Positions 39,958 through 44,142 of a stretch of 64,000 nt of DNA are shown here, one piece after another. The notes under the pieces are model-generated. The model was not told where the DNA came from. It saw only the letters and a program-made list of their open reading frames with translations, and searched no databases. Numbering within the stretch: position 1 is the stretch's first letter; every line of letters begins with the position of its first letter. The position numbers and the translations under genes are program-made. Source of the DNA: a bacterium (lineage in GTDB: Bacteria > Patescibacteriota > Minisyncoccia > Phycocordibacterales > UBA1006); assembly GCA_030433255.1 (NCBI GenBank), contig JAUIMI010000002.1, positions 239,396-303,395 on the forward strand. The letters are read 5' to 3'.

Positions 39958-41139
39958 ATGTCCGATAAGGTTACGACAAATAAACAGTACATTATTTTTG
40001 ATATAGACAGCACGAGTATTGGTGGTGGTGTTTTTCGTTTTGGATATGATGCAAATAATAACCATATTCAAACAACAGAATTGTTTTCGGTTCGTAAAAA
40101 TATTACCAATGGAAAAAAATATCCATTTGACTATTTTTTTAAACAAACCTTAAAAACACTTGAACAGGTTGCCCAAGATGTGTACCTACAATCTCATATT
40201 TCAATTCATGGGTTCTACTGTAATATTGGTACACCTTGGATGAGTGCCCAAAAACAAATTGTTACGTATACAAGTAAAAAACCATTTACGTTTACACAGG
40301 AATTTGCTGATTCTTTAATAGAAAAAGAGTTTCAAGTGTCTTTCAAAAAAAATAAAAATTATGCAAAACATCAAGTGGAGCTTATTGATAGAAGAACAAT
40401 TGATGTCTATGGAAACGGATACCCAACACGAAATCCAATTGGTAAAAAAATGAGTGATGTTCATATTCATTCTTTAGTAAGTGTTATGTCCACATCAACC
40501 AAAAAAGCTTTTTCCGAAGTGTTTGAAAAGGTCTTTCACCAAGAAGTAATATATCTTTCAAACACCTTTTTATCTTATCAAACCCTATACTCTCACTCTG
40601 AACAAACAGATAATGCTATTATTATTGATGTTTCTGGTGAGGTGACAGAGCTACTTGTTGTACAAAAAGATCACCTTACTCACATTGGATCTATTCCTAT
40701 TGGTTCGAATGGTATTATTCGTCATCTTGCCGAGAACCTTAAGGTTCCGTATGGCAAAGCACAAAGTATTATTTCTTTATACCAGCAACAGAAACTAGAC
40801 ACTACCTATGAAGATAACATTCAAAATCAATTACATGATTCATTTCGACTGTGGTTTAAAGAATTCTTTAATGCTTGTGACTCGTACGCAAAAGAAGGCT
40901 TACTTCCTCATGTAATTATTTTACGAAGCAGTAAAGCAACATCATTATGGCTAGAATACATGATTCTAAATGAAGATTCTCTTCGTGAGCATATACATAC
41001 AAAAGGTCGTATTTACTTACAACATATGGATTCATTTTTTATTGATAAGGCAGAAGAACATGAAGACTTGGAATTAAATGTTGTAGCTGGTTTTATTTCA
41101 GGATATTTAAATCACAATGGATCAACAAAAACGAATTAA
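39958..41139 (+). CDS. Actin-like ATPase of the FtsA/PilM fold
   Basis: 393 aa. The two phosphate loops of the actin fold are visible: FDIDSTSIGGGVF at about residue 14 and IIIDVSGEVTELLVVQ near 225, followed by GSIPIGSNGIIRHLA. The region between them (SHIHSLVSV-like segment and the VIYLSNTFLSYQTLYS stretch) fits an SHS2-type insertion as in FtsA and PilM. The conserved Gly/Asp pattern is weaker than in true FtsA, so ATP binding is not certain. It overlaps the next gene by 23 bases, so the two products are probably made together. A cell-division or envelope-scaffold role is inference. Confidence 0.6.
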   Translation: MSDKVTTNKQYIIFDIDSTSIGGGVFRFGYDANNNHIQTTELFSVRKNITNGKKYPFDYFFKQTLKTLEQVAQDVYLQSHISIHGFYCNIGTPWMSAQKQIVTYTSKKPFTFTQEFADSLIEKEFQVSFKKNKNYAKHQVELIDRRTIDVYGNGYPTRNPIGKKMSDVHIHSLVSVMSTSTKKAFSEVFEKVFHQEVIYLSNTFLSYQTLYSHSEQTDNAIIIDVSGEVTELLVVQKDHLTHIGSIPIGSNGIIRHLAENLKVPYGKAQSIISLYQQQKLDTTYEDNIQNQLHDSFRLWFKEFFNACDSYAKEGLLPHVIILRSSKATSLWLEYMILNEDSLREHIHTKGRIYLQHMDSFFIDKAEEHEDLELNVVAGFISGYLNHNGSTKTN

Positions 41140-42484
41140 TTCAATAGAAGGTATTAAGCGTAGAAAAAAAAGAACGAGAAATGCTCGTTCTTTTCGCCAT
41201 GATACACCTGATTCATTCATAGATAAAAAAGAGGTTAAAACACAAAATTTCATTTCAAAAAAAGTAAAACCAAAAAAAAGAGCTGTTACAAAGAAAACGC
41301 CAACTAAATTACTTCAAAGTAGGCAAAACTATTTGAGTAGTAGTATTTCATTTTTTAAAACTCAATGGTTTTGGTTACGATATATTATTTGGATTTTTGT
41401 TATTAGTATTGGTATTGTAATTTTTTTTAATACAAGAGAAAAAACGTATATTACTATCCGTCCACACCATGAATACATGAGTGTTGATACGAATATTATG
41501 TTACACAAAAACCCACAAGAAGATGAATTAGGTTTTGATATTATTGCAATACACGATGAAGTTTCCATTCCAGTAATTGCTGAAGGTATTCGTGATGTGC
41601 AAAAAAAATCATCAGGTGTGGTAACTATCTATAATAATTACAGTACTGAACCACAACGTTTGTTGGCTGAAACTCGTTTTCAATCCGCGGGAGGTAAGAT
41701 TTTTAAACTTGGAACAGATGAAGTAATCATTCCTGGAAAACAACAGGATTCACCTGGTACTATTCAGGTAAGGTTGTATGCAGACCAATCTGGCTCTGAA
41801 TATAATATTGATAGTACTGATTTTACTATCCCAGGATTTAAGGAAGTTGGACTCAATGAAAAGTATAATACTATATACGCAGTATCAGAAGAACGATTTT
41901 CTGGCGGGTATTCAGGTACAGAACCGTACATTACAGACATACAAAAACAAACCCTAGAAGAAGAGTTACGTAAGAGATTACAAGAACGTCTTGTTTTACG
42001 ATTAGGACACGAAAAAACAGATCAATTGATGCTTGTTAAAGAGTCAGCTCAAATTGATATTCAAGATTCTTATCTTACGACAGGTTCTGGTGGTAATGGT
42101 GATACATTAGTGCAGCCAGGTACTATAATTGCGGTACTTGTTGGTCTTGATGAATTTATTTTCTATATAGAAGATGTATTAAACACAGGTGAAATACCAG
42201 AATTTATTATTGATGATATTAATGACGCCAGTATCACTCAGTACACAGAATTTGATTTTGAAAGTGATGATGCATTAGAAGTTACGATACAAGGTGAATT
42301 GTTTACAGAATCTCTTCTTGATGAAGATATTTTAAAACAAAAATTTAATAATCAATCTTTTGATGATTTAGGAGTAGTATTCAATAGTATGAATACCATT
42401 GACAGGTTACATGTAGTTACTCGACCATTTTGGAAGAAAAAGGTTTCAAATAATGTTGATAATATATATATTTTGTATGAATAA
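41117..42484 (+). CDS. Conserved CPR-type membrane protein, partner of the actin-like gene
   Basis: 455 aa. A very basic cytoplasmic N-terminus (KRRKKRTRNARSF, KKVKPKKRAVTKK; about 95 residues), one membrane helix (YIIWIFVISIGIVIFF), and a large acidic extracytoplasmic part. The latter contains SSGVVTIYNNYSTEPQRLLA and GTIQVRLYADQSGSEYNI, segments common to CPR proteins often annotated as baseplate-J-like. Topology resembles bitopic division proteins such as FtsQ, without sequence evidence for it. It overlaps the actin-like gene by 23 bases. Directly after its stop the sequence changes to an Rhs fragment. Confidence 0.65.
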   Translation: MDQQKRINSIEGIKRRKKRTRNARSFRHDTPDSFIDKKEVKTQNFISKKVKPKKRAVTKKTPTKLLQSRQNYLSSSISFFKTQWFWLRYIIWIFVISIGIVIFFNTREKTYITIRPHHEYMSVDTNIMLHKNPQEDELGFDIIAIHDEVSIPVIAEGIRDVQKKSSGVVTIYNNYSTEPQRLLAETRFQSAGGKIFKLGTDEVIIPGKQQDSPGTIQVRLYADQSGSEYNIDSTDFTIPGFKEVGLNEKYNTIYAVSEERFSGGYSGTEPYITDIQKQTLEEELRKRLQERLVLRLGHEKTDQLMLVKESAQIDIQDSYLTTGSGGNGDTLVQPGTIIAVLVGLDEFIFYIEDVLNTGEIPEFIIDDINDASITQYTEFDFESDDALEVTIQGELFTESLLDEDILKQKFNNQSFDDLGVVFNSMNTIDRLHVVTRPFWKKKVSNNVDNIYILYE

Positions 42485-42486
42485 TA

Positions 42487-43086
42487 TGTGACATAGTAAA
42501 TGATGTAACCACACACAATGGTTTATATTACATCAAGGCACGTTATTATGATGCTAAACTTGGACGTTTCTTAACTCAAGACCCTATTTGGAGTACGAAT
42601 TTGTATCCGTATTCTGATAATAATCCGATTAGTAGAATAGATTTTAATGGAGCGAACTATTTTAACTATAATTATTCAGCTTACCAACACGAATTTTTTA
42701 ATTACACAGCAAATGTTTCAGAAAGTTTTAATAATGGAATTGAAAGAATTGCAAGGTTAACTTTTGAAAAATTACAAAACAATGGATTATTAATTTCCGC
42801 AACAGGTGCCGGAGTATTTGTAGCTGGTGGTCCTTTAGCCCCTGTTGGTGCAAAACTGTTTGTAGCAGGTGGTATTATTTCGGGCATCGGAGCAATAGGT
42901 GAAGGATTAACAGATTATATAGTTTATAATGACCCTAATGGACTAATAAGAGTTCTATCCTTTGAAGCGGTTAATTATGCCTTAGGAAAAACATTAAGTA
43001 TTTTGAAAGCTACACCTAAAGAAAAAATCACATCAGAATTTATACTACAAATTTTTAATGAATCTATAGAAAATTATGAAAGATAA
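42487..43086 (+). pseudogene. C-terminal fragment of an Rhs/YD-repeat protein with a tip domain
   Basis: The frame opens without a start codon and reads NGLYYIKARYYDAKLGRFL, then TQDPIWSTNLYPYSDNNPIS and RIDFNGANY: the end of an Rhs core, whose usual form is ARYYDP..GRF..QDP. After it comes a Gly/Ala-rich hydrophobic stretch (GVFVAGGPLAPVGAKLFVAGG) and a helical tail, as in variable Rhs tips. The repeat core that should precede it is missing and no promoter is seen. A TTG at 42601 could start a 161-aa piece lacking the core motif. The CPR gene ends at 42484, so the junction is within a few bases of it. A remnant of a transferred Rhs-type toxin gene; toxin activity of the tip is inference. Confidence 0.75.
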
Positions 43087-43231
43087 GGTAATCTCAAAAA
43101 AACAAATAATAAAAAAATTTATAGCATTACTGACATTTGTTTTTATAGTTATTCATTGGTTTACAGAATTTGATATTCTTTTTTTGATATTGTTTCTAAT
43201 ATTTATTTTTTATTTAATAGATAAATCATGA
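43076..43231 (+). CDS. Small membrane protein overlapping the Rhs tip, 51 aa
   Basis: MKDKVISKKQIIKKFIALL... with two hydrophobic helices (FIALLTFVFIVIHWF and ILFLILFLIFIFYLI). It overlaps the end of the Rhs tip frame by 11 bases. A small gene directly after an Rhs tip is often the immunity gene of that toxin, and a membrane immunity protein would fit a pore-type toxin. That is inference from position; the sequence matches nothing I know. It ends in TGA. Confidence 0.45.
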   Translation: MKDKVISKKQIIKKFIALLTFVFIVIHWFTEFDILFLILFLIFIFYLIDKS

Positions 43232-43258
43232 TTTTTTAAAATTCCAAAAAAATTATAA

Positions 43259-43822
43259 ATGAAAAACCTAGTACACATACTATTCTTCATCCCAATCACG
43301 CTATTCGCTCAAGATTGGCATGAAGAACAACGCACCTATGAATACGACAACCTCAACCGTTTGGTTAAGGTTGTTTTTCATAATGGTATTGTTTACGAGT
43401 ACCAATACGATAATTTAGGTAATCGCTTGGGTAAAACCATAGATGTAGAATTGCCAGCAGATAACTATGAGATTTCAACGGTTGGTTTAACTTGCATTAA
43501 TAGTAGCGATGGTATCATCCACATAGAAGTCGACAGAAAAAATACTTACAATGTGGAGATAGATAGTCCAGACAATAGTTTTAATGAAATCTTTCAGCTA
43601 TCAACAACTAACGATTGGACATTAGATATTGATTACCTTGAAGGTGGAGAATGCTTTGTGTATGTAACTATTGATGGTATTGATGACTCTATTTACAAAA
43701 AGACTTTTATCCTAAATCTCGATGAACCAGAACCATTAGAAGCTGTAAGCAGAATGGCAAATACCAATGGACGTTTTACCGTTGAAATGACATGGAATGA
43801 ACGTAATAATTTTAATGTCTGA
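43259..43822 (+). pseudogene. Truncated secreted YD-repeat protein of Bacteroidota type
   Basis: 187 aa. A Bacteroidota-style signal peptide (MKNLVHILFFIPITLFAQ) is followed by two YD repeats (YEYDNLNRLVKVVFHNG and YEYQYDNLGNRLGKTI). Then comes a beta-rich domain (NYEISTVGLTCINSSDGIIH ... GGECFVYVTIDG ... LDEPEPLEAVS) that looks like the modules near the C-terminus of type IX secretion substrates in Flavobacteriia. The domain breaks off shortly after (TWNERNNFNV), where such proteins normally continue, so it is probably truncated. Base composition is less AT-rich than around it. CPR bacteria are not known for T9SS, so it is best read as transferred DNA, possibly from a host. Confidence 0.7.
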
Positions 43823-43849
43823 GTAATAAAGAAAAAGACTCTTTACGAT

Positions 43850-43877
43850 TTGACTAAAATATGCTTTCTGTTAGTAT
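43850..43877 (+). promoter_or_regulatory. Promoter of the infA-rpmJ-rpsM operon
   Basis: -35 TTGACT (43850-43855), 16-bp spacer, -10 TAGTAT (43872-43877), 13 nt before the infA ATG at 43891. It lies inside the longer frame beginning at 43861, arguing against that earlier start. Confidence 0.5.
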
Positions 43878-43890
43878 GGTCGTTATTGTA

Positions 43891-44142
43891 ATGAGCAGTA
43901 ATAAAGGAGAAACAAAAATTGGGGTAGTCGTGGAAAATCTTCCAAATACGATGTTCCGTATCCAGTTTGAAGGAGAGGATATTCCTCTTGACGCAAATGG
44001 GGAGCCAAATATGGCTCAACTTCCTATTGCGTATCTTGCTGGAAAGATGAAGTTATACCGGATTAGGATACTTGTCGGAGATAAGGTTGAGGTACTTCTC
44101 GACCCGTATGGAGGAAAGGGAAGAATTATCAAACGACTGTAA
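43891..44142 (+). CDS. infA: Translation initiation factor IF-1 with a loop insertion
   Basis: 83 aa, an S1/OB-fold protein that occupies the 30S A site during initiation. VVVENLPNTMFRIQF and GKMKLYRIRILVGDKVEVLLDPYGGKGRIIKR align directly with E. coli IF-1 (72 aa). Between them the strand-connecting loop carries about 13 extra residues (GEDIPLDANGEPNMAQLPIA), acidic and Pro-rich. I start at 43891 (MSSNKGETKIG), as the upstream ATG at 43861 would precede the promoter start point. First gene of the infA-rpmJ-S13-S11-S4 cluster; the foreign Rhs island ends just upstream. Confidence 0.93.
   Translation: MSSNKGETKIGVVVENLPNTMFRIQFEGEDIPLDANGEPNMAQLPIAYLAGKMKLYRIRILVGDKVEVLLDPYGGKGRIIKRL

Follow-up and report, generated by a model that had tools for sequence, protein, structure and literature searches.

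The window, a stretch of 64,000 nucleotides (C4:239396-303395) from the genome G000 (812,087 bp in 6 contigs, estimated at 99.4% complete and 2.65% contaminated), which is taken as CPR from its small size, its gene content and an earlier sequence-only reading, holds 1406 bp between the stop codon of a 455-aa gene at 42484 and infA at 43891. Three plus-strand open reading frames lie in this interval, which is laid out with its flanks as follows.

41117..42484, plus strand: native left-flank gene of 455 aa, intact up to its stop codon
42485..42493: left junction, at most 9 bp past the stop codon; similarity to Xanthomarina begins at 42493
42493..42651, plus strand: Rhs core end without a start (GLYYIKARYYDAKLGRFLTQDP...NNPISRIDFNG); TIGR03696, 50.8 bits
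42652..43086, plus strand: variable C-terminal Rhs tip with a hydrophobic stretch; open frame, positioned behind the core
43076..43231, plus strand: hydrophobic 51-aa protein overlapping the stop of the tip; candidate immunity gene
43259..43792, plus strand: N-terminal 178 codons of a signal-peptide/YD-repeat gene, cut ahead of the T9SS tail
43793..43822, plus strand: run-out of the truncated YD frame, ending in TGA; alignment to the Xanthomarina gelatinilytica locus L041 fails from 43792 onward
43838..43890, plus strand: native infA leader, conserved with same-genus genomes
43891..44142, plus strand: infA, right flank; PF01176, 48.1 bits

The interval between the 455-aa gene and infA

The sequence-only reading had described a start-less Rhs core end directly past 42484, a small membrane gene after the Rhs tip, and a separate gene with a signal peptide, YD repeats and a truncated domain of the kind found near T9SS-type C-termini, and all three were recovered. 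The Rhs frame is open over 42481-43083 with no ATG, GTG or TTG before 42601, and its core matches TIGR03696 (Rhs_assc_core) well above the cut-off of 32.5 bits, over model positions 26-75 of 76. About 57 residues of the core region remain; the long N-terminal YD-repeat shell and the export signal are gone. Neither Pfam nor NCBIfam gives a match above cut-off in the tip, and a protein search with the Rhs piece returned its own window protein alone. Candidates in that search were confined to 0.55-1.75 times the query length, which left full-length Rhs proteins invisible, and therefore a donor with the same tip may exist. A resemblance to the tip of an Aequorivita Rhs gene scored 53 against a shuffle maximum of 56, and we do not claim homology. 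The 51-aa frame sits directly 3' of the tip, which is the place of a cognate immunity gene.

The third frame (43259-43822, 187 aa) starts, by eye, with a signal-peptide-like sequence, carries RHS repeats (PF05593, 30.9 bits, cut-off 22) and ends in a truncated second domain. It has no match to the sorting domains PF18962 or TIGR04183 in Pfam and NCBIfam and so does not itself class as a T9SS substrate. Its longer homologues, of about 310 aa, do have a T9SS tail (PF18962), and alignment to them breaks abruptly at residue 178. The best match, P0002 (310 aa, with a T9SS tail), is 93% identical over 95% of the frame (E 4e-106), well past anything that chance would give.

In relatives the site is empty. 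The surroundings of the upstream gene were retrieved for 29 relative loci, of which 27 were testable. In 25 of these infA lies directly 3', its alignment starting 60-335 bp beyond the end of that of the upstream gene. Two of the 29 reach a contig end within 142 bp of the upstream gene, and two of the eight testable same-genus loci (L010 and L011) have other sequence behind it and no infA. The gap to infA is 33-80 bp in six same-genus loci versus 1406 bp in the window. The proposed insertion between two conserved genes is supported. The upstream gene was matched in 38 of 41 searched genomes (its own counted), and its C-terminus is as long as in eight same-genus loci. On the other side, native sequence had been read as resuming at about 43.85 kb; by eye, sequence matching the same-genus infA leader has resumed by about 43838. 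A TTGACTAAAATATGCTTTCTG-type leader block, again identified by eye, is common to the window and L003-L007, and is preceded by CTCTTTAC in L003 and L004. Taken together, the empty site, the resumed leader and the full-length upstream gene indicate that about 1.3 kb was added and nothing visibly lost.

We place the foreign DNA at about 42493-43791, with the left junction within 42485-42493 because similarity to flavobacterial DNA starts at 42493. The junction stretches have no direct or inverted repeats of at least 7 bp in common, and the two ORFs of at least 100 aa and the 51-aa ORF contain no recombinase domain in Pfam or NCBIfam. The island thus has neither an integrase or recombinase of its own nor the defined ends of an integrative element. 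As a separate observation, infA of the window encodes 83 aa with about 12 extra residues (the PLDANGEPNMAQL region); the infA match spans 71 codons in several same-genus loci.

Relation to Flavobacteriaceae Rhs loci

The sequence-only reading suggested a Bacteroidota source and a database search with the pieces, and this search narrows the source to Flavobacteriaceae. The YD protein has 29 matches, three of them with a named organism (Kordia twice, Polaribacter). In named genomes it matches 16 loci, and the five that match at near full length (at least 293 of 310 residues) all belong to Flavobacteriaceae: Xanthomarina gelatinilytica (L041), an uncultured member of the family (L042), two Kordia (L043 and L044) and an Aequorivita MAG (L045). 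The other 11 match only in short stretches around the YD repeats. Relatives of the YD gene at this infA site were absent from the genomes searched.

All five of these loci have the same arrangement on one strand: a Rhs gene with core and variable tip (1322-1386 aa), one small gene (82-182 aa), and the YD/T9SS gene (310-405 aa). The window shares this order and strand of core end, tip, small gene and YD gene, but keeps only the roughly 57 core-region residues and 178 YD residues, and the tip differs between loci. Between the core end and the YD start lie about 740-1210 bp in the Flavobacteriaceae loci and about 610 bp in the window; the difference is made up by the tip and the small gene, which are not constant between loci. 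Since the donor-type loci have the same order, the gene layout identifies the island as one contiguous slice of a flavobacterial Rhs locus, truncated on the left within the Rhs core and on the right at codon 178 of about 310 in the YD gene. The order of a C-terminal piece before an N-terminal piece had been taken as a sign of rearranged remnants. It is instead the end of one gene followed by the start of the next, which is normal in 5/5 donor-type loci, and we reject rearrangement within the island.

The sequence itself points the same way. Xanthomarina gelatinilytica DNA is 89% identical to the window over 42493-42641 (149 bp) and 43259-43791 (533 bp). The Rhs core is 83-88% identical to the five Flavobacteriaceae loci and at most 44% identical to 33 CPR-side Rhs loci, which leads us to reject a native CPR Rhs. 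That comparison set (L059-L091) represents 30 of the 36 further order genomes in which a Rhs core occurs, four of its loci lying on one contig of the genome G003; counting G000, 37 of 397 order genomes have such a core. A check of composition against the flanks gave a divided answer. GC in the windows over the island is 27-35%, similar to that of the flanks, and is not informative. In its synonymous codons the island is flavobacterial: 64 of 65 native chunks score above the YD piece and 65/65 above the Rhs piece, with a flavobacterial reference that contains homologous loci and so somewhat favours this result. Between the window and Xanthomarina YD pieces, dN is 0.048 and dS 0.53 (NG86), and the bulk of this divergence may have arisen on the donor side. 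A phage or plasmid carrier was considered and set aside, as no match was found in the phage or plasmid collection; viral contigs contained no relative of the YD family. With an island nearer to another phylum than to its own kin, at a site that is empty in kin, the locus has the marks of a horizontal acquisition. DNA identity, core identity, gene order and codon use all identify Flavobacteriaceae as the family of origin.

Further flavobacterial-type DNA in the genus

The YD protein also matches a fragment in the same-genus genome G002 (L038:5340-5660), between dnaB and a VirD4-like ATPase gene. The intergenic space there measures 367 bp, some 270 bp more than in G011, the nearest relative (about 96 bp); the corresponding space in the window genome is 110 bp. 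Of the 10 other genomes whose locus was retrieved, 5 have dnaB ahead of the ATPase gene and 5 show no dnaB there. The fragment joins a short bit of Rhs core (KHGIINDVNARYGLY, identified by eye) to YD repeats and to the beginning of a domain of leucine-rich-repeat type like that in the Aequorivita gene; it is eroded and frameshifted. On the left, the window and G002 fragments start at nearly the same place in the Rhs core, no more than about 12 bp apart (n=2). Random breakage would rarely yield such closeness, but at two cases the coincidence is no more than suggestive. The flanks of the two insertions are no more similar than shuffles, and neither a target-site duplication nor a common attachment site was found at the junctions or at the G002 site.

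Elsewhere in G000, contig C3 (L139:8855-19001 and the start of L146) carries a flavobacterial-looking island beside genes that by eye are native-looking. It encodes a 456-aa T9SS-tail protein, a serine recombinase (PF00239 and PF07508; of the NCBIfam models CcrB scores best, at 161.7 bits and below its cut-off of 900), a VirD4-like ATPase (PF10412 and PF12696), a 194-aa protein and a TauD-like hydroxylase. Further genes of the island also look flavobacterial, and there are, by eye, a HlyD-like fragment and a possible remnant of a GG-leader peptide.

These genes provide the main rival to simple uptake of DNA: a Flavobacteriaceae mobile element with the serine recombinase, the VirD4-like ATPase and the 194-aa protein would move between Flavobacteriaceae and the CPR genus with Rhs genes as cargo, and the window piece would be a leftover. 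Homologues of the three genes lie directly 3' of the Rhs/YD-T9SS locus in 3/5 Flavobacteriaceae loci, and the same three genes recur beside large Rhs ORFs on contig C16 of G003 (19 kb, which could be a binning error). They also have a restricted distribution: alignment of the ATPase begins in its N-terminal part in 6/197 order genomes (and covers its whole length in four) and the 194-aa gene occurs in 8/397, the organisms named among the best 120 of its 259 matches being Flavobacteriaceae. However, the window island holds none of the three genes, has no junction repeat, and has no flank in common with the G002 site. Identity to the recombinases of Kordia and Aequorivita reaches only 40-43%, and their orientation is different. 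About 8 kb downstream in L041 and L042 yielded none of the three genes, and a hit to the ATPase at E 1e-30 or better, usually confined to the ATPase domain, occurs in nearly every genome of the order (193/197). We therefore regard an element as a possible but doubtful source of the window island. As a side observation, nine T9SS-tail matches occur in one order relative (G053), which also has the 194-aa gene and a VirD4-like ATPase homologue that aligns over its whole length.

T9SS tails themselves (PF18962, E 1e-4 or better) were found in 32/397 order genomes. They are concentrated in the family of the window genome, with 12/14 genomes versus 20/383 outside (Fisher p 7e-13, ignoring shared descent); above the PF18962 cut-off there are 29 genomes, 11 in the family and 18 outside. 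Four of the five same-genus genomes that have a T9SS-tail gene carry it within about 3 kb of tpiA (named by eye), as listed here.

L140:8621-10096: secreted-type gene with T9SS type A tail near tpiA; tail checked individually
L142:9280-11580: secreted-type gene with T9SS type A tail near tpiA
L143:8453-9919: secreted-type gene with T9SS type A tail near tpiA
L144:3390-4931: secreted-type gene with T9SS type A tail near tpiA

Because of this shared position, the gene was probably inherited in the same-genus genomes, and the T9SS-tail gene of the window genome is nearer to native genes in codon use. A search for T9SS machinery in the family gave 0/20 for SprA_N, with positive controls likewise without signal. 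A T9SS is not known from CPR bacteria, and no description of T9SS tails in CPR was found in the open-licence literature. Tails of this type also occur in a second family, f87 (G235, G285, G306, G362, G377 and G391); that in G377 (L099) is of the QNYPNPFNPST type known from Ignavibacteria. Por-tail proteins are reported in a section of PMC5596340 on MGII, SAR406 and SAR202.

Proposed entry of the island and a possible host

We propose that the island is a contiguous slice of a Flavobacteriaceae-type Rhs locus that probably integrated through illegitimate recombination once the cell had taken up DNA of a flavobacterial host or neighbour. Donor DNA would have entered the CPR cell through ComEC, which is encoded in the genome (PF03772), or by spill-over from a flavobacterial-type element elsewhere in the genome, and illegitimate recombination would then have placed the 1.3-kb slice between the upstream gene and infA. 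PMC12455944 proposes competence and pili as the likely uptake route in Patescibacteria and gives Bacteroidota as donor in 6 transfer events to that group. The transfers treated there are of genes, genomic islands and prophages, whereas the window has a slice across two genes for which the empty site and the donor-type locus are both resolved; the term "Rhs" is not present in the main text of that paper. We found no description of the island itself in the open-licence literature.

The capture would be recent, since the frames are open and 89% identity to a living species is retained. It is likely that the island is non-functional in the CPR cell, because the Rhs piece lacks a start codon and the YD piece lacks its T9SS tail. 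The open frames could instead reflect retained function, in which case one proposal is an orphan tip/immunity module, kept because the 51-aa protein shields the cell from the Rhs toxin of a flavobacterial partner. As described in PMC3967940, orphan rhs-CT/rhsI modules of Enterobacteriaceae such as Salmonella likewise pair a displaced rhs fragment that has no start with a small gene linked to it, and here the 51-aa frame is intact, overlaps the stop of the tip and lies on the strand of the flanking genes. The start-less core remnant with its tip is of the orphan rhs-CT kind. In contrast to the enterobacterial modules, however, the window fragment adds the start of the next gene, belongs to a distant bacterial group, and stands in a genome with no main rhs gene, its own core being the single Rhs core match in G000. 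No homologue of the tip or the 51-aa protein was identified, and the G002 fragment has no tip or immunity region. Retained immunity is thus a minor alternative that we consider quite improbable.

A chimera of assembly or binning, in which flavobacterial reads were misjoined into a CPR contig, was a concern from the outset, given a bin contamination estimate of 2.65% and the repeat-rich nature of Rhs and YD sequences, but is very unlikely: on a single 303-kb contig, each flank agrees in synteny with relatives, and a chimera would therefore take two wrong joins at a distance of 1.3 kb; the foreign stretch begins no more than 9 bp past a stop codon and leaves the genes on either side intact; a fragment of the same type sits at another site in the G002 assembly; and contig C2 of G003 has, by eye, Bacteroidota-type Rhs together with CPR-type genes. 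Uptake followed by illegitimate recombination ranks as the most likely explanation.

The sequence-only reading saw in this DNA a possible hint of host identity. That hint falls short of proof and has been strengthened, because the G002 fragment and the C3 island accompany it and T9SS-tail genes are concentrated in the family. On these genomic comparisons, Flavobacteriaceae are plausible as our best guess for the host of this CPR bacterium, or they may be a mere neighbour. A fuller picture can be drawn in which the CPR genus lives on Flavobacteriaceae, trades DNA with them via a Rhs-carrying recombinase/VirD4 element, and keeps host parts for its contact surface (T9SS-tailed proteins near tpiA, immunity genes against host Rhs toxins), with the window island as a fresh, still open example. 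We offer this whole only as speculation and think it unlikely to hold in full.

For most CPR lineages no host is known. In this genome a fragment identifies the donor to family level at the scale of a single locus, further lines in the genome and the genus agree, and the host hypothesis becomes directly testable. The island also shows that tiny stretches of DNA from a neighbour can lie between the core operons of a streamlined genome, and gene-level surveys of transfer could miss them.
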